Source of the DNA: Actinomycetes bacterium
GTDB lineage: Bacteria; Actinomycetota; Acidimicrobiia; Acidimicrobiales; Microtrichaceae
DNA: 64,000 nucleotides
Assembly (NCBI GenBank): GCA_024222295.1
Contig: JAAEPF010000017.1
Location: 248,001 to 312,000 of the forward strand
Direction of reading: 5' to 3'
Positions 226 to 7,480 of the stretch are shown here, piece by piece. The position numbers and the translations under genes were made by a program. The notes under the pieces are model-generated. The model had not been told where the DNA came from. It saw only the letters and a list, made by a program, of their open reading frames with translations, and searched no databases. Numbering within the stretch: position 1 is the stretch's first letter; each line of letters starts with the position of its first letter.

Positions 226-1610
226 GTGACATCACGCAGCCGCGGGACCTGCCTCAGGTGGACGTGCTCGCACGCAGTGCCGATGGGCTCGCTCCGGCTC
301 CGGTGGTGCGTACCGAGGCGCGGCGCATCATCGACGACGCCCGCGAGCACCTGGCAACAGCATCGACCACCACCGAGGCGCTGCAAAGGGCCCTTGCGGA
401 TGCGGTCCTCGCTCGCGGGCCGCTGCGACCCGTGGTCAACGCCACCGGTGTGATGCTTCACACCAACCTGGGGCGCGCGCCGCTGGCCCCGTTGCAGGAG
501 AGCGACTCGGGGCTCGCCACGGTGCCAATCGAGATGGACCTGTCGGGTGGCCGCCGCGCGGGGCGCCTCGGCGGTCTCGAAGCCGACATCAGCGAACTCG
601 CCGGTGCCGAGTCGGCTCTGGTCGTGAACAACAACGCTGGGGCCGTCCTACTGGCACTGACAGCCCTCGCTCGCGGAGGTGAAGTTGTCGTATCGCGGGG
701 TCAGCTGGTCGAGATCGGTGGTTCGTTCCGCGTGCCCGACATCGTCAGCCAGGGCGGAGCCGTCATGCGCGAGGTCGGCACCACCAACCGCACACACCTG
801 GCCGACTACCGCTCCGCGATCGGTGACGACACCCAGGTGCTGCTAGAGGTCCACCCGTCCAACTTCGCGCAGCTCGGCTTCGTGAAGTCGGTGCCCACGC
901 GCGACCTGGCCAAGCTGGCCGACAGTCATGGCTTGCACATGGTTCACGACATCGGCTCGGGCCTGGTCGACGCGCACACCCCCTGGTTGGACGGCGCTCC
1001 GCCCGACTTCCTTCGCGACGAGCCGGCGGCGCGGCAGTCGATCGAGGCCGGTGCACACGTCGTGACCTTCAGCGGCGACAAGCTCCTGGGCGGCCCACAG
1101 GCAGGCATCCTCGTTGGTGAGAAGGCTCGCATGGAGCGGATCCGGCGCCACCCACTGGCCAGGGCGCTGCGCTACGACAAGCTGCGCGCCGCGCAGTTGC
1201 ACGCCGCGGTGCGTGCACATCTCGACCGCACCGCCGCCGAATCAGTGCCGTTCTGGCAGATGGCCACAGCCGCGCCGGCTGACCTGGAGGCTCGGGCGGC
1301 AGCGTTGGTGGCCCGGTTGCAGCCGACCGCGGCCGAGGTGGTGCAGTTCGACGACTCCGCCGGGGCCGGCTCCGCTGCCAACCGACCGATCGACGGCCGG
1401 GCGGTGGCGTTGTCGGTCCATGACCCCCGGGCCGTTGCGGCCGCCCTGCGCGCAGGGCCGACACCGGTGCTGGCTGTCGTGCGCTCGGGCACGGTGCAGT
1501 TGTCCATGCGCACCATCGACCCTGCGACGGATGAGCTCGTGGCCGAGGCTGTGCTCCACGCCGTCGCCAGCCCTGTCGGCGGCAGCCCTGTCGGCGGGAG
1601 AACCGATTGA
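222..1610 (+). CDS. selA: L-seryl-tRNA(Sec) selenium transferase
   Basis: A 462-residue PLP enzyme, the usual SelA length, that converts seryl-tRNA(Sec) to selenocysteyl-tRNA(Sec) with selenophosphate. The N-terminal region contains RPVVNATGVMLHTNLGRAPL, and the PLP-binding lysine is in SGDKLLGGPQAG (Lys287). These are hallmark SelA sequences. The start is GTG at 222, overlapping the selD stop. The 3' end overlaps the selB start by four bases, so selD-selA-selB form one operon. No tRNA-Sec gene was seen next to it. Nothing in the sequence looks truncated. Confidence 0.95.
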   Translation: MSDITQPRDLPQVDVLARSADGLAPAPVVRTEARRIIDDAREHLATASTTTEALQRALADAVLARGPLRPVVNATGVMLHTNLGRAPLAPLQESDSGLATVPIEMDLSGGRRAGRLGGLEADISELAGAESALVVNNNAGAVLLALTALARGGEVVVSRGQLVEIGGSFRVPDIVSQGGAVMREVGTTNRTHLADYRSAIGDDTQVLLEVHPSNFAQLGFVKSVPTRDLAKLADSHGLHMVHDIGSGLVDAHTPWLDGAPPDFLRDEPAARQSIEAGAHVVTFSGDKLLGGPQAGILVGEKARMERIRRHPLARALRYDKLRAAQLHAAVRAHLDRTAAESVPFWQMATAAPADLEARAAALVARLQPTAAEVVQFDDSAGAGSAANRPIDGRAVALSVHDPRAVAAALRAGPTPVLAVVRSGTVQLSMRTIDPATDELVAEAVLHAVASPVGGSPVGGRTD

Positions 1611-3436
1611 TCGTCGCCACGGCGGGCCACGTCGACCACGGCAAGTCCACGCTCGTGCGCCTGCTCACGGGCATCGACCCGGACCGGTGGCAGGAGGAGA
1701 AGCGCCGGGGCCTCACCATCGACCTGGGGTTCGCGTCCATGGAGATGGAGATCCCCGGCGGACCGTCCGTGCTGGGATTCGTGGACGTGCCCGGTCATCG
1801 CCGCTTCGTGCCGAACATGCTGGCGGGCTGCGGCTCGGTTGACATGGCGTTGCTGGTGGTGTCGGCCCGCGAAGGCTGGATGCCGCAGACCGAGGAGCAC
1901 CTGGCGATCCTCGACCTTCTCGGCGTGCACTCGGCCGTGGTGGCAATCACCCATGCCGACACCGTCGATCCCGACACGGTGGAGCTGGCCAAGCTCGAGG
2001 TGAGCGAGGCCCTCGCCGGCACAGGGCTGTCGGGCGCGGCGATGGTGACGACATCGTCTACCGACGCCTCCGGTATCGAGTACCTCCGCGAATCGATCAG
2101 TTCGGTCGCCTGCTCCTCGTCGGGCCCGACCGGCCGGGATAGCGGCCGGCCCCGCCTCTGGATCGACCGGTCGTTCCTGCTGAAGGGCAGCGGAAGGGTT
2201 GTGACCGGCACGCTCACCGGCGGATCGCTGCGCGTCGGCGACGACGTGGTGATCGCCGGCGGCGGGGGTGAGGTCTCCGCACACGTGCGTGGACTGCAGG
2301 TGCACGGGCGCAGCACCGAGGTCGCCGAGCCGGGCCACCGCGTGGGCGTTTCGCTCACGAGGCTCGATGAAGCGCCGCAGAGAGGCCAGGCGCTGGTGGT
2401 CCCGGGCCAGTGGGCTTCGGGGAAACGTTGGCAGGCGGCGGTGTGGCCGGTGCGGGGCCGCGGAGACCGACTCGAGGGCAAGGGTGGCTACGAGGTGTTC
2501 GTGGGCACGGCGCACGCGTCGGCCCAGCTTCGATTCGGCGACACCGGCGCTGATCTGGCTGCGGTCCGCTCGGCCGGTGATGCGGTGCTGGCGAGGCTGC
2601 ATCTGAACGAGGCTCTCGGGCCTGTGGCTCCGGGGGACCGGTTCATCCTGCGCGACACGGGTGCCGACGAAACGGCGGGCGGGGGAGTGATCCTCGCGGT
2701 CGATGCGGATCTGAACCGCTACGACTCGGCGGCGATGGCCGCCAGGTGGCTGGTGCTGAACGGGTCCGCTGTACGGGGCGCTCGCAACCTGGCGGAGCAG
2801 CTGGTGGGGGAGGCCGACGGGTGCATGGCCGCATCGGCGTTGGCCACCCAGGTCGGGCCCTTGGCGGAGCTGGAGGCAGGCGACCTGCTGGAGATCGGTC
2901 ACTGGGTCGTCTCGGCCGATGCGTTGCATCGCCGGCGTGACGGATTGCTCGAGGTGCTGGAAGGGCAGGCCTCGGTACCCGAACCGTCCGATCCGCTCGG
3001 GAGGATCGCCGTGGACGGGTTGCTGGCCGACGGGCTCGTGGAGCGCCGTAGCGGCACGGTGCAGCGGCCGGGAACGGCTGGCTCGGAGTACGAGGCGGCT
3101 CGTGACCGGCTGCTCGGCGCGCTTCAGTCGGAGCCGCCCCACATGATGGGACCATCGGAACTCACCGCTGCGGCCGGTGTGGCCCAGCGTCATGTCGGTG
3201 AGGCTGTACGCGACGCGACGCTGGTCGACCTCGGCGGGATGGTCGTCACGCCGCAGCGGTTTGCCGAGCTGGTCGAACAGGTTCGTTCGGTGCTCGAGGT
3301 CGGCCCGGCCTCGCTCGCCGACTTCCGCGAGGGTCTGGGACTCAGTCGCAAGTACCTCCTGCCCCTGCTCGACACGCTCGACGCCCGCGGGCTCACCCAC
3401 CGCAACGGAGAAACCCGCACCTGGTCTGGCAACTGA
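1607..3436 (+). CDS. selB: Selenocysteine-specific elongation factor
   Basis: A 609-residue translational GTPase that delivers selenocysteyl-tRNA to UGA codons marked by a SECIS hairpin. The G1 motif is GHVDHGKS (residues 7-14), switch I is in RRGLTIDLGFA and G3 is DVPGH. The usual NKxD guanine-specificity motif reads THAD, a deviation in G4. EF-Tu-like beta-barrel domains follow, then a C-terminal winged-helix region (about residues 380-609) that in the family binds SECIS RNA. The start is TTG at 1607 inside the selA stop (ATTGA), so coupling is likely. It is the last gene of the operon and ends at a strong hairpin. Confidence 0.94.
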   Translation: MIVATAGHVDHGKSTLVRLLTGIDPDRWQEEKRRGLTIDLGFASMEMEIPGGPSVLGFVDVPGHRRFVPNMLAGCGSVDMALLVVSAREGWMPQTEEHLAILDLLGVHSAVVAITHADTVDPDTVELAKLEVSEALAGTGLSGAAMVTTSSTDASGIEYLRESISSVACSSSGPTGRDSGRPRLWIDRSFLLKGSGRVVTGTLTGGSLRVGDDVVIAGGGGEVSAHVRGLQVHGRSTEVAEPGHRVGVSLTRLDEAPQRGQALVVPGQWASGKRWQAAVWPVRGRGDRLEGKGGYEVFVGTAHASAQLRFGDTGADLAAVRSAGDAVLARLHLNEALGPVAPGDRFILRDTGADETAGGGVILAVDADLNRYDSAAMAARWLVLNGSAVRGARNLAEQLVGEADGCMAASALATQVGPLAELEAGDLLEIGHWVVSADALHRRRDGLLEVLEGQASVPEPSDPLGRIAVDGLLADGLVERRSGTVQRPGTAGSEYEAARDRLLGALQSEPPHMMGPSELTAAAGVAQRHVGEAVRDATLVDLGGMVVTPQRFAELVEQVRSVLEVGPASLADFREGLGLSRKYLLPLLDTLDARGLTHRNGETRTWSGN

Positions 3437-3547: not shown

Positions 3548-4342
3548 TCAGGTGCGGGACTTCCAGTAGCCGCGGATCGTCGCCTGGCTGCGAGGCACCC
3601 CGAGGGTGCGGAAGAAGTGCTTGCGGAGTGCCTGCACGGCGGCGGCTTCTCCGGCGGCCCAGATTGCCGTCGCCTCGTCCACCGACTCAATTGTGGTGCC
3701 CACGGCAACGAGCGTCGCCCCCGGGGCCTCGCTCTGGGACCGCACGTGGCGAGCAACCGTCAACGACGCGAAGCTCGGCAGTGAGTCGCCCACGCCGGGC
3801 GCACCGACCTCGAGGTGCACGGTGCACTCCGGCTGCGGATCGAGCCGGGCTGCCTCGGCGAGCATCTGGCCGATCGCGGGGATCGCAGACTCGTCGCCGA
3901 ACATGAGCCACCTCGGAGCCGAGGTGTCGATCCCCACCGCAGCGCCCGGGCCGGACAACGCGGCGGGGTCTCCGGATGTGGCCGACTCCGCCCATCCGGA
4001 GACCGCTCCTCCCGGGTGACGCACTATTTCGAGCTCGAGGGTACGGCGGGCAGGGTTGTGGTCGAGTGGGGTGAAGGTGCGGATCACGGGCCGACCCCCA
4101 CCGGGCAGCAGGAACTCATTGCCAGTCCATTCCGGGATCACGAGATCGGCGCCGGCAGCCTCCGGAACCAGCAGACGGATGCTTGCAGCAGTCTCCGGCG
4201 CGGCCATCGAAGCGAGGTCGTCGCCGCGCAGGGTGATCCGCATGAACCGTTCGTTGAGCGCGACGACGTCATCGATCACCACCGGCATCCACGGTGGGGG
4301 AGGTCGGCGAACCCGGGGCCCGCCGGCATCGCGTGTGCTCAC
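3548..4342 (-). CDS. Siderophore-interacting protein (ViuB-like FAD/NAD(P)H ferric reductase)
   Basis: A 264-residue protein of the siderophore-interacting family, flavoproteins that reduce ferric siderophores in the cytoplasm. FAD-binding region: RTFTPLDHNPARRTLELEIVRH followed by the glycine-rich GGAVSGWAES. The C-terminal NAD(P)-type half ends in IWAAGEAAAVQALRKHF and IRGYWKSRT, both typical of the family. The chosen start is GTG at 4342, just before the sequence STRDAGG; ATG at 4288 is an alternative. It is divergent from the SRPBCC gene. No iron box or siderophore gene is seen nearby, so the physiological ligand is unknown. Confidence 0.85.
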   Translation of the reverse strand: MSTRDAGGPRVRRPPPPWMPVVIDDVVALNERFMRITLRGDDLASMAAPETAASIRLLVPEAAGADLVIPEWTGNEFLLPGGGRPVIRTFTPLDHNPARRTLELEIVRHPGGAVSGWAESATSGDPAALSGPGAAVGIDTSAPRWLMFGDESAIPAIGQMLAEAARLDPQPECTVHLEVGAPGVGDSLPSFASLTVARHVRSQSEAPGATLVAVGTTIESVDEATAIWAAGEAAAVQALRKHFFRTLGVPRSQATIRGYWKSRT

Positions 4343-4404
4343 GGTCGCGACCGTACCGGCATTGCCCCATGGACGGGGCCTCTCTCGGCGACCACACTGG
4401 GCGG

Positions 4405-4890
4405 ATGCCGACCACAGTCGCCCGAAGCATCGACCTGTCGAGCCCACCCGAGGACGTGTGGGCGGTGCTGGGAGAGTTCGGTGCGATCAGCTCGTGGGCG
4501 CCCAATGTGGACCACTCCGTGCTGCTGGAGGGCAGTCCCGGTATCGGCGGCTCGCGGCGCATCCAGACCGGCTCCTCCACATTGGTCGAGACCGTGACGG
4601 CGTGGGATCCACCCTCGACGTTGTCCTACGACATCGAGGGCCTTCCGCAAGTGGTCCGCCATGTGTCCAACACCTGGCACGTCTACGGCCACGATGGCGG
4701 CTCGAGAGTGACGCTCGCGAGCGTGATCGACACCGGGTCCCGCCCGCCGGGGCCGATCGTTGCGAGAGTGGTGGGCCGCTTGCTCGGGCGTGCCTCGGAG
4801 CAGATGCTCACGGGCCTGCGCAACAGGCTGTTGGCTATCGAGGGTGCCCAGGAGCGCCGAAGTGCAGAGAGGACGGCCGCGAATGGCTGA
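4405..4890 (+). CDS. SRPBCC-family (polyketide cyclase/START-like) protein
   Basis: A 161-residue protein with the helix-grip pattern of the SRPBCC superfamily: SIDLSSPPEDVWAVLGEFGAISSW at the N-terminus, then alternating strands and a long C-terminal helix (PPGPIVARVVGRLLGRASEQM). Such proteins bind or transform hydrophobic ligands; nothing here defines the ligand. ATG 4405 is preferred because homologous sequence begins there. The last eight bases overlap the start of the sulfatase gene, so the two are probably co-transcribed. Confidence 0.75.
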   Translation: MPTTVARSIDLSSPPEDVWAVLGEFGAISSWAPNVDHSVLLEGSPGIGGSRRIQTGSSTLVETVTAWDPPSTLSYDIEGLPQVVRHVSNTWHVYGHDGGSRVTLASVIDTGSRPPGPIVARVVGRLLGRASEQMLTGLRNRLLAIEGAQERRSAERTAANG

Positions 4891-7480
4891 TCGACCTGAC
4901 GTGATCCTGATCATGAGCGACGAGGAGCGCGCCGCACCCTCCTACGAGACCGACGAGCTGCGCGAGTGGCGCTCGGCCACGCTGCCGGGCGAGCGGTGGT
5001 TCGAGGACAACGGCGTCAGCTTCCGTCGTCACTACACGGGTTCCTTGGCGTGTGTGCCAAGCCGCCCCACCTTATTCACAGGCCAGTACCCCGACGTCCA
5101 CGGTGTCACCCAGACCGATGGCCTCGGCAAGATGGCTGACGACACGAGGATGCGCTGGCTGCGAGAGGCAGAGGTGCCGACGCTCGGCAACTGGTTCCGC
5201 GCGGCCGGCTACGACACGCACTACGACGGCAAGTGGCACATCAGCCACGCCGACCTGCACGACCCCGAGACTGGTGACGTGCTGGCCACGAACGACGACG
5301 ACGGCGTGATCGACCTTGCGGCGGTGCAGAAGTATCTCGACGCCGATCCGTTGGGGCCTTTCGGCTTCTCGGGCTGGGTCGGCCCGGAGCCGCACGGGGC
5401 GCCGCTGGCCAATAGCGGACTGCGACGCGACCCGCTCATCGCCGACCGCGTGGTTGCGTGGCTCGAGGACCGTTACGCGCGAAGGGCCGCGGGAGACACC
5501 GAGGCGCTTCGGCCGTTCCTGTTGGTGGCGAGCTTCGTCAACCCGCACGACATCGTGCTGTTCCCCGGCTGGCAGCGCTCGAGCCCGCTGGAGGAGTCAC
5601 CGCTCGATCCGCCGCACGTGCCGCCGTCGCCCACTGACGACGAGGATCTCTCCAGCAAGCCCGCGGCACAGATCGCCTACCGCGAGGCCTACTACTCGGG
5701 GTATGGCCCTGCCGCTGTCGTGAAGCGCATGTACACCTCCAACCTCCAGCAGTACCGCGACACCTACTACCGGCTGCATGCAGAGGTGGATGCACCGATC
5801 GACCGTGTCCGGCGCGCTGTCACCGACGGGGTGGAAGCCGGCGCATCGTCGGACACGGTGCTGGTACGCACCTCCGACCACGGCGATCTGCTCGGCTCAC
5901 ACGGCGGACTGCACCAGAAGTGGTACCAGCTGTACGACGAGGCCACCCGGGTACCGTTCGTGATCGCCAGGGTTGGTGAGTCGCCCACCGAAGGCCGGGT
6001 GGTCGAGGCCCCCAGCTCGCACGTCGACCTCGTGCCCACGCTGCTGTCGGCAGCAGGGGTGGATGTGGACGCGACAGCGGCGGAGCTCGCAGGTGATTTC
6101 ACCGAGGTGCACCCGCTGCCCGGTCGCGATCTCATGGGCACCGTTGATGGCGGGGATCCCGATGAGTCGCGCGCCGTATACCTCACGACGCGCGACAACA
6201 TGCTCGAGGGCGACAGGGGAGCGTCCGCCATCGCGCGGCAGCTCGGTCGCGCCGACAACCCGCCCGCACTGATGCGGATACAGGTGCCCGCCCATGTGGC
6301 CACCAACTTCGAGGGTGTCGTGGCCCGGGTGGACGACGCCGATGCCCCCGGCGGTGCAGGACACCTGTGGAAGGTGGTGCGCACCTTCGATGATCCCAAC
6401 ACCTGGACCGAGCCGGGTGTGCGCCAGCTGGCCGCGGACGGGCCAGGTGGAGTGTCGTGGCGAACCGACGTGCTCGATGACCAGTGGGAGTTCTACGACC
6501 TCACGGCCGATCCGATCGAGGCGCACAACCGCCTCGATGACCCCGGCCTGCTCGAGGTGCGCGACCACCTGAAGCGGCTGCTCAAGGAAGAGCGCGCCGA
6601 ATGCGTGCCGGAGCGCAACAACCCCTGGCCCTACGCGGTCAGCAAGGCCCACAGCGCCCCCGATGCCGAGTCGCCGCTCCCGCCGGCACGGGTGCTGCGC
6701 CGTGGGCTGCAGCGTCTCGGTCTGCATCCCGACGACGTTGACTCGGCCAACGCGCCGGAGCTGCCCGGTCGTCGGGCCCTGGTGGTCGCGACCAACCACG
6801 GAGTGCTCGACGTCGGCAAGCCGACCGGTGTGTTCGCCTCGGAGATGACGGCGCCCTACTACGTGTTCCTCGACGCCGGCATGGACGTCGACGTGGCGAG
6901 TCCGCGGGGTGGGGCAATCCCGGTGGACCCGCAGTCGCTCAAACCGGTGCTGCGCAGCGAGCATGACGACAGGTTCCTCGCAGACGACACGCTCCGGGAC
7001 AAGGTCAACGATTCGCTCGCCGTCGGTGAACTCGACATGGCCGACTACGACATCGTGTACCTGGCCGGCGGCTGGGGTGCAGCCTGGGACTTCGGCACAT
7101 CGGAGGAGCTCGCAGCGCAGCTCACGGAGGCCAATGGGCTCGGCAAGGCGATCGGTGGCGTGTGCCATGGCCCGCTCGGACTCCGCAACGCGACAGCGCC
7201 GGATGGCTCGCCGCTCGTGGAGGGTCGCCGTATCAGCGCGGTGACCGACAAGCAGGTGCGCGAGCTCGGCATCGAGTCCACGCCACAGCACCCCGAGACG
7301 GAGCTGCGTCGGATGGGTGCGAGGTTCGAGTCGACCTCGAAGTTCCGGGACTTCCTCGCCAATCACTGGGTGGTCGACGGCAACCTGGTGACCGGCCAGA
7401 ACCAGAACGCGGGTCCGATGGTCGCCCGCGAGCTGCTCGGGGTCGTCGCACGTTCCGAGGAAGCGGACTCCGACGGCTGA
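4883..7480 (+). CDS. Sulfatase fused to a DJ-1/PfpI (Hsp31-like) domain
   Basis: An 865-residue two-domain protein. Residues 1 to about 580 are a type I sulfatase: metal-binding DVILIMSDEERA near the start and the formylglycine signature CVPSR at residues 57-61 (followed by PTLFTGQYPDVHGV), plus the metal-site sequence RTSDHGDLLGSHG. Residues about 628-860 resemble Hsp31-type DJ-1/PfpI proteins: VFLDAGMDVDVASPRGG, YLAGGWGAAWDF, and the nucleophile elbow GVCHGP with Cys761-His762. Both active sites look intact. The linker is proline-rich. ATG 4883 overlaps the SRPBCC gene. I know of no standard family with this pairing. Substrate unknown; the maturation enzyme for formylglycine is not in the window. 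Confidence 0.88.
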   Translation: MADRPDVILIMSDEERAAPSYETDELREWRSATLPGERWFEDNGVSFRRHYTGSLACVPSRPTLFTGQYPDVHGVTQTDGLGKMADDTRMRWLREAEVPTLGNWFRAAGYDTHYDGKWHISHADLHDPETGDVLATNDDDGVIDLAAVQKYLDADPLGPFGFSGWVGPEPHGAPLANSGLRRDPLIADRVVAWLEDRYARRAAGDTEALRPFLLVASFVNPHDIVLFPGWQRSSPLEESPLDPPHVPPSPTDDEDLSSKPAAQIAYREAYYSGYGPAAVVKRMYTSNLQQYRDTYYRLHAEVDAPIDRVRRAVTDGVEAGASSDTVLVRTSDHGDLLGSHGGLHQKWYQLYDEATRVPFVIARVGESPTEGRVVEAPSSHVDLVPTLLSAAGVDVDATAAELAGDFTEVHPLPGRDLMGTVDGGDPDESRAVYLTTRDNMLEGDRGASAIARQLGRADNPPALMRIQVPAHVATNFEGVVARVDDADAPGGAGHLWKVVRTFDDPNTWTEPGVRQLAADGPGGVSWRTDVLDDQWEFYDLTADPIEAHNRLDDPGLLEVRDHLKRLLKEERAECVPERNNPWPYAVSKAHSAPDAESPLPPARVLRRGLQRLGLHPDDVDSANAPELPGRRALVVATNHGVLDVGKPTGVFASEMTAPYYVFLDAGMDVDVASPRGGAIPVDPQSLKPVLRSEHDDRFLADDTLRDKVNDSLAVGELDMADYDIVYLAGGWGAAWDFGTSEELAAQLTEANGLGKAIGGVCHGPLGLRNATAPDGSPLVEGRRISAVTDKQVRELGIESTPQHPETELRRMGARFESTSKFRDFLANHWVVDGNLVTGQNQNAGPMVARELLGVVARSEEADSDG

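Follow-up and report, generated by a model that had tools for sequence, protein, structure and literature searches.

A conserved actinobacterial fusion of a sulfatase with a divergent Hsp31-class DJ-1 domain, a candidate bifunctional enzyme

In this paper we describe a sulfatase-DJ-1 fusion gene and its surroundings in the genome of an actinobacterium of the Microtrichaceae (assembly GCA_024222295.1, contig JAAEPF010000017.1). The window, by which we mean the whole stretch of DNA that was analysed, covers 64,000 nucleotides. The features of interest, with positions counted within the window, are the following.

4405 to 4890, plus strand: SRPBCC (Polyketide_cyc2) START-like ligand-binding protein (Pfam PF10604, 84 bits on the 4294-4887 frame)
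4883 to 7480, plus strand: sulfatase-DJ-1 fusion gene, 865 aa (72 full-length fusions aligned)
4895 to 6061, plus strand: S1 sulfatase catalytic domain, residues 5-393 (PF00884 and residue counts)
5051 to 5065, plus strand: formylglycine site CVPSR with Cys57 (motif conservation across fusions and sulfatase-only relatives)
6641 to 6766, plus strand: inter-domain linker, residues 587-628 (P/A-rich piece, conserved helix 602-612, HPxD motif)
6767 to 7450, plus strand: Hsp31-class DJ-1/PfpI domain, about residues 629-856 (PF01965; VIA-align to 1u9c; subclass signature)

The SRPBCC gene overlaps the start of the fusion gene by 8 bases. Just upstream, also on the plus strand, lie the genes of a SelA-like selenocysteine synthase (222-1610) and a SelB elongation factor (1607-3436). 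No tRNA genes were found within the 64-kb window.

The fusion gene is a single uninterrupted frame of 865 residues, from the ATG at 4883 to the stop at 7480. Three Pfam matches in its protein are above cut-off: Sulfatase (PF00884, residues 5-393, 152 bits), a short SGSH_C match (533-572) and DJ-1_PfpI (PF01965, 652-852, 43 bits). This bears out the first-pass annotation, made from the DNA letters only, which had described a sulfatase fused to a DJ-1/PfpI domain. That annotation had also proposed a search for the same fusion in other genomes, where it was indeed found. Among the best 80 relatives from a scan of species-representative genomes, taken together with whole-genome hits, 72 ORFs, counting the window protein itself, can be aligned across essentially the entire fusion, and most of them are about 57-73% identical to the window protein. 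The genome itself (3.76 Mb, 97% complete) carries a second fusion on another contig, 68% identical to the first. An assembly or frameshift artefact joining two genes can therefore be rejected, because the 72 aligned fusions come from many independent assemblies, among them two single-contig genomes (G113 and G031).

The carriers are mainly Acidimicrobiia (Ilumatobacter, Microthrix and marine MedAcidi lineages), and fusions are also found in records labelled Nocardioides sp. Root1257, Streptomyces sp. CB02009 and Frankiales. The labels Bifidobacterium and Planctomycetaceae on a few fusion-bearing MAG records are probably binning errors. DJ-1 matches in long frames at two further loci (L022 and L024) were not counted as fusions, as they appear to be stand-alone genes whose frames extend through non-coding sequence in front of them. 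None of 72,556 plasmid records covers 80% of the fusion protein.

The two domains had been described as joined by a proline-rich linker. A short P/A stretch is present, but the segment is not a bare flexible linker, since a conserved stretch with the pattern PPPPARxLRKxLQxxGxHPxD follows the P/A-rich piece, with a predicted helix at residues 602-612 and an HPxD motif. The AlphaFold model of the fusion has a mean pLDDT of 84.4 and a pTM of 0.71.

The formylglycine motif of the sulfatase domain is very well kept. Cys57, Ser60 and Arg61 are invariant in 72/72 fusions and in 17/17 sulfatase-only relatives, and Pro59 is found in 71/72 fusions. Asp13, Cys57, Arg61, Lys117, His119, His222, Asp332, His333 and Lys346 likewise do not vary in the 72 fusions and 17 sulfatase-only relatives, and position 14 is Glu in 66 fusions and Gln in 6. 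Asp13, Glu14, Asp332 and His333 are the presumed metal ligands, and Lys117, His119, His222 and Lys346 the presumed catalytic Lys/His set. Judged by these residues, the domain looks fully competent for catalysis. The positions that the first-pass annotation had given for Cys57 in CVPSR and for Cys761-His762 were right, and these residues are invariant in the 72 fusions, with one unreadable residue at 762. A more specific function is not assigned by the NCBIfam equivalog models, which all score far under their cut-offs: 93.9 of 433 bits for choline-sulfatase, 90.5 of 481 for the arylsulfatase model PRK13759 and 76.9 of 900 for PehA. The N-terminus, MADRPDVILIMSDEERA, shows no signal peptide obvious by eye, and this suggests that the fusion is a cytosolic enzyme.

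The fold of the modelled sulfatase domain matches S1 sulfatases at Z 26-31 and phosphonate monoester hydrolases at Z 26-28, raising the question whether the domain might act mainly as a phosphonate monoester hydrolase, or as a phosphodiesterase, within the formylglycine superfamily, with the DJ-1 domain acting on its product. Solved phosphonate monoester hydrolases do match both by sequence (4upk) and by fold (4uph_A, Z 27.6; 2vqr, Z 27.2), and His333 at the second metal position resembles this group. However, solved sulfatases reach equal or better scores (6hr5, Z 30.7; 3b5q_A, 30.2; choline sulfatase, 29.6), and the gene clusters of the relatives hold another sulfatase. We regard a phosphonate or phosphodiester substrate as improbable.

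A sulfatase of this kind depends on conversion of Cys57 to formylglycine. The genome encodes an anaerobic-type sulfatase maturase (sulfatase_rSAM, 464 bits against a cut-off of 349), and its sole PF03781 match resembles EgtB beside EgtD rather than a formylglycine-generating enzyme (FGE). It seems to rely on the radical-SAM sulfatase maturase rather than on FGE. The EgtB-like and EgtD-like genes, recognised by sequence resemblance, are adjacent to each other on contig 24 (locus L117, genome G000). Strong PF03781 matches are found in most of the other fusion genomes checked. Five fusion-bearing genomes (G113, G302, G303, G306 and G310) have neither a clear FGE nor a sulfatase_rSAM match; some of these are draft assemblies, but G113 is a single contig, so that a missing piece of the assembly is an unlikely reason for the absent maturase there.

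The DJ-1 domain belongs to the Hsp31 class, because its nearest structures are 1u9c (VIA-align Z 31.5, rmsd 1.7 over 220), 4p5p, yeast Hsp31 (1qvw, Z 30.3) and Candida glyoxalase III. The earlier description of the domain as Hsp31-like was thus correct at the level of fold. In the alignment with yeast Hsp31, Glu30, Cys138 and His139 are the counterparts of Glu654, Cys761 and His762. Glu654 and Cys761 are present in all 71 fusions compared and His762 in 70, with one residue unreadable, and the Gly729-Gly730 turn is kept. In HchA, the substitutions E77A, G153S, G154S and C185S abolished alpha-oxoaldehyde hydratase activity, whereas H186A and D214A did not, as judged by end-point assays (PMC11301059). 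The equivalents of the four essential residues (Glu654, Gly729, Gly730 and Cys761, assigned via conserved motifs) are all kept in the fusion.

Other parts of the pocket are changed. The His of the GGHG pocket motif is replaced by Trp731 in 71/71 fusions, whereas it is His in 12/12 stand-alone actinobacterial homologues. Val792 aligns with the third triad acid (Glu170 of yeast Hsp31), and this position is Val in 69/71 fusions but Glu in all 12 stand-alone homologues. Further residues invariant only in the fused domains include Tyr659, Tyr660, Arg691, Asp696, Arg697, Gln791, His803 and Pro804, and the pocket residues of the fused subclass are not common as a set to the 12 stand-alone homologues. 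The view that both domains look active can therefore be retained for the sulfatase, but needs qualification for the DJ-1 domain, which keeps Glu654, Cys761, His762 and the Gly-Gly turn and has lost the pocket His and the third acid. We suggest that the DJ-1 domain is probably catalytic, with a reshaped pocket. Because of Trp731 and Val792 it is probably not a standard glyoxalase III or an ordinary methylglyoxalase, and its chemistry may be weak or different. With the HchA equivalog model of NCBIfam the domain scores 32 bits against a cut-off of 365.

DJ-1 relatives at E 1e-15 or better are found in 44 of the 198 sampled genomes of the order. All complete copies at 54% identity or more within these 198 genomes lie in fused-size frames, so this DJ-1 subclass is not seen as a stand-alone protein there. 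The shorter frames with a close DJ-1 match, inspected with the exception of one (G356), are partial matches, most of them at contig ends.

The altered pocket also allows a different explanation, in which the DJ-1 domain serves as a structural module that stabilises, dimerises or chaperones the sulfatase and has no need of its catalytic residues. There is a precedent in the same superfamily: large-subunit catalases are described as consisting of a catalase and an Hsp31-derived C-terminal domain which gives stability and chaperone activity (PMC9137513). The loss of the third triad acid and of the pocket His would fit such a role. It is questionable, though, why a pure scaffold should keep Glu654 and Cys761 invariant, His762 in all readable copies and a strictly conserved new pocket, and for these reasons we favour catalysis. 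The structural explanation is the main rival and deserves to be taken seriously, but we find it rather unlikely.

The genes around the fusion give some indication of what the enzyme might act on. An SRPBCC gene lies directly 5' of the fusion or sulfatase gene, on the same strand, in 74/75 loci whose upstream sequence is long enough; for the mycobacterial loci among them the count is 11 of 12. The SRPBCC stop and the sulfatase start overlap in 63/87 cases, and in 80/87 the spacing lies between -30 and +40 bases. Many loci of the relatives have nearby one or more of the following: a sulfatase of about 760 residues, a metallo-beta-lactamase-fold hydrolase, a TetR regulator, a DUF1330-like protein and a haloalkane dehalogenase, the last recognised by NCBIfam PRK00870 (468 bits, where 265 are required). 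The dehalogenase, the metallo-hydrolase and the second sulfatase occur together at 11 loci. Of this recurrent partner set, the SRPBCC gene alone accompanies the window copy. Near the paralogue on contig 34 there are the large sulfatase, a DUF1330 protein and dehalogenase homologues of a more distant kind. At L183, L184, L037 and similar loci, the large sulfatase, the metallo-beta-lactamase-fold hydrolase and the haloalkane dehalogenase recur with the SRPBCC protein and the fusion. The recurring cluster suggests catabolism of sulfated, possibly halogenated compounds.

Mycobacteria show that the sulfatase can be found without its partner domain. In the genus of the mycobacterial matches (g57) the sulfatase is present in about 46 of the 60 sampled species, and the DJ-1 part is seen in none. 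The sulfatase is absent, at E 1e-100, from 40 genomes of other families. We considered whether DJ-1 might be supplied in trans in Mycobacterium, but no relative could be detected in 7 of 8 genomes, and the eighth has one at 38%. Since Mycobacterium keeps the SRPBCC and sulfatase genes without DJ-1, the two activities would not be obligately coupled. That these sulfatases, about 73% identical to that of the fusion, manage without the DJ-1 domain also speaks against its being a structural module. The same observation bears on another explanation, in which the DJ-1 domain has a general protective function and is responsible for glycation or oxidative repair or for methylglyoxal detoxification near the sulfatase or its formylglycine aldehyde. 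Its essential Glu and Cys are present, and Hsp-type DJ-1 proteins are mostly glyoxalase III (PMC5691139). Yet Mycobacteria use the same sulfatase without a fused DJ-1 domain and, in those seven genomes, without a detectable relative, which argues against protection being needed for sulfatase function. Moreover, the pocket signature differs from that of the stand-alone homologues at positions that are invariant in both sets. We therefore give a general protective role only a small chance.

In rooted trees the Mycobacterium sulfatases fall within the fusions, where the window protein is their sister (support 97, and 90 in a second tree), which suggests transfer followed by loss of the DJ-1 domain in the mycobacterial clade. 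The direction, gain or loss, is not fixed by this, because the branches leading to the outgroup are very long and a single clade of fusions is not rejected by AU tests (p 0.41 and p 0.67). The mycobacterial sulfatase-only proteins terminate within the linker region, at about residue 590-615 of the fusion, and the resemblance of their C-termini to the start of the linker might be a hint on the order of events, although only a suggestive one.

A match to the Rfam family Ms_AS-5 (RF02465, a Mycobacterium sRNA) is found at 5051-5095 on the minus strand, exactly antisense to codons 57-71 and starting from the formylglycine codon. Nine of the relatives scanned likewise carry a match within their sulfatase gene, and it is strongest in the mycobacterial ones. 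In the window it is probably explained by coding conservation of CVPSRPTxFTGxYPD. An sRNA overlapping AS-5 has also been detected in M. smegmatis (PMC10454040), and antisense regulation of the mycobacterial sulfatase is therefore worth checking.

Our preferred, though tentative, explanation, to which we give somewhat less than an even chance, is that the fusion is a cytosolic bifunctional enzyme which desulfates a hydrophobic sulfate ester and then carries out Cys/Glu carbonyl chemistry. In the first step the S1-type sulfatase, with Cys57 converted to formylglycine, would take the sulfate off an ester of a hydrophobic organic molecule, for which the neighbouring SRPBCC protein is probably the binding or delivery partner. 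The carbonyl on which Cys761, helped by Glu654 and His762, would then act belongs in this scheme to the desulfated product or to an intermediate that comes soon after it. This second step might be of the hydratase or isomerase type, via a hemithioacetal, in a pocket that Trp731 has reshaped to suit a dedicated substrate. Several points count against such a two-step reaction: the third triad acid and the pocket His are gone, Mycobacterium has the sulfatase without the DJ-1 domain, some fusion genomes show no clear maturase, and the sulfatase site, with His333 and with Gln or Glu at position 14, would also suit a phosphonate monoester hydrolase or a phosphodiesterase.

A more specific possibility is that the fusion is a two-step catabolic enzyme dedicated to sulfated, partly halogenated hydrophobic metabolites, for which chlorosulfolipid-like compounds are one candidate. 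Here the alcohol freed by the sulfatase would become an alpha-oxo or halo-carbonyl, which the Hsp31-type domain would turn into an acid. The SRPBCC protein would be the carrier, with the haloalkane dehalogenase, second sulfatase and metallo-hydrolase as partners in the fuller clusters. We consider this scenario a long shot, and a search for literature linking chlorosulfolipid and sulfatase found nothing.

Both domain families are already known; what is new is their conserved combination and the divergent Hsp31 subclass. No entry of Pfam or NCBIfam spans both domains, and a search of the openly licensed PMC literature found nothing relevant on a fusion of a sulfatase or arylsulfatase with a DJ-1, PfpI, ThiJ or Hsp31 domain. 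The pairing is real and conserved and, apparently, undescribed. If our explanation is true, aquatic and soil actinobacteria have in common a conserved architecture in which desulfation is paired with carbonyl chemistry that depends on a cysteine. Members of the DJ-1 superfamily are often known only by their in vitro methylglyoxal activities. The fusion would provide a handle on a divergent Hsp31-class subfamily, whose substrate should sit chemically beside the sulfatase product and the SRPBCC ligand, and with a pathway partner defined by the genome the physiological DJ-1 substrate becomes testable.

The comparison with known systems shows how each part of the fusion relates to characterised proteins. 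With the S1 sulfatases (choline, GAG and porphyran sulfatases and arylsulfatases) and the phosphonate monoester hydrolases, the fusion has in common the formylglycine motif, the metal-ligand and catalytic positions and the alkaline-phosphatase-superfamily fold. The solved members are only about 15-26% identical to the window sulfatase domain, and the DJ-1 domain and the SRPBCC partner set the fusion apart from them. Closest to the fusion in the sulfatase part are the sulfatase-only relatives of Mycobacterium and Mycolicibacterium, about 70-76% identical, which keep the SRPBCC and sulfatase pair but lack the fused DJ-1 domain. The DJ-1 domain has the same fold as the Hsp31 class II or glutathione-independent glyoxalase III proteins (yeast Hsp31, Candida Glx3, 1u9c and 4p5p; Z about 30-31), together with their active-site Glu, Cys-His and Gly-Gly turn. 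It differs from them by Trp in place of the GGHG His, by Val in place of the third triad acid and by the attached sulfatase. The large-size-subunit catalases of the HPII type likewise join an unrelated enzyme domain to a C-terminal domain of the Hsp31/DJ-1 class. In the fusion the host enzyme is a sulfatase and not a catalase, so that the analogy is one of design only, and its DJ-1 domain has invariant Glu654, Cys761 and His762 and a conserved pocket signature of its own.
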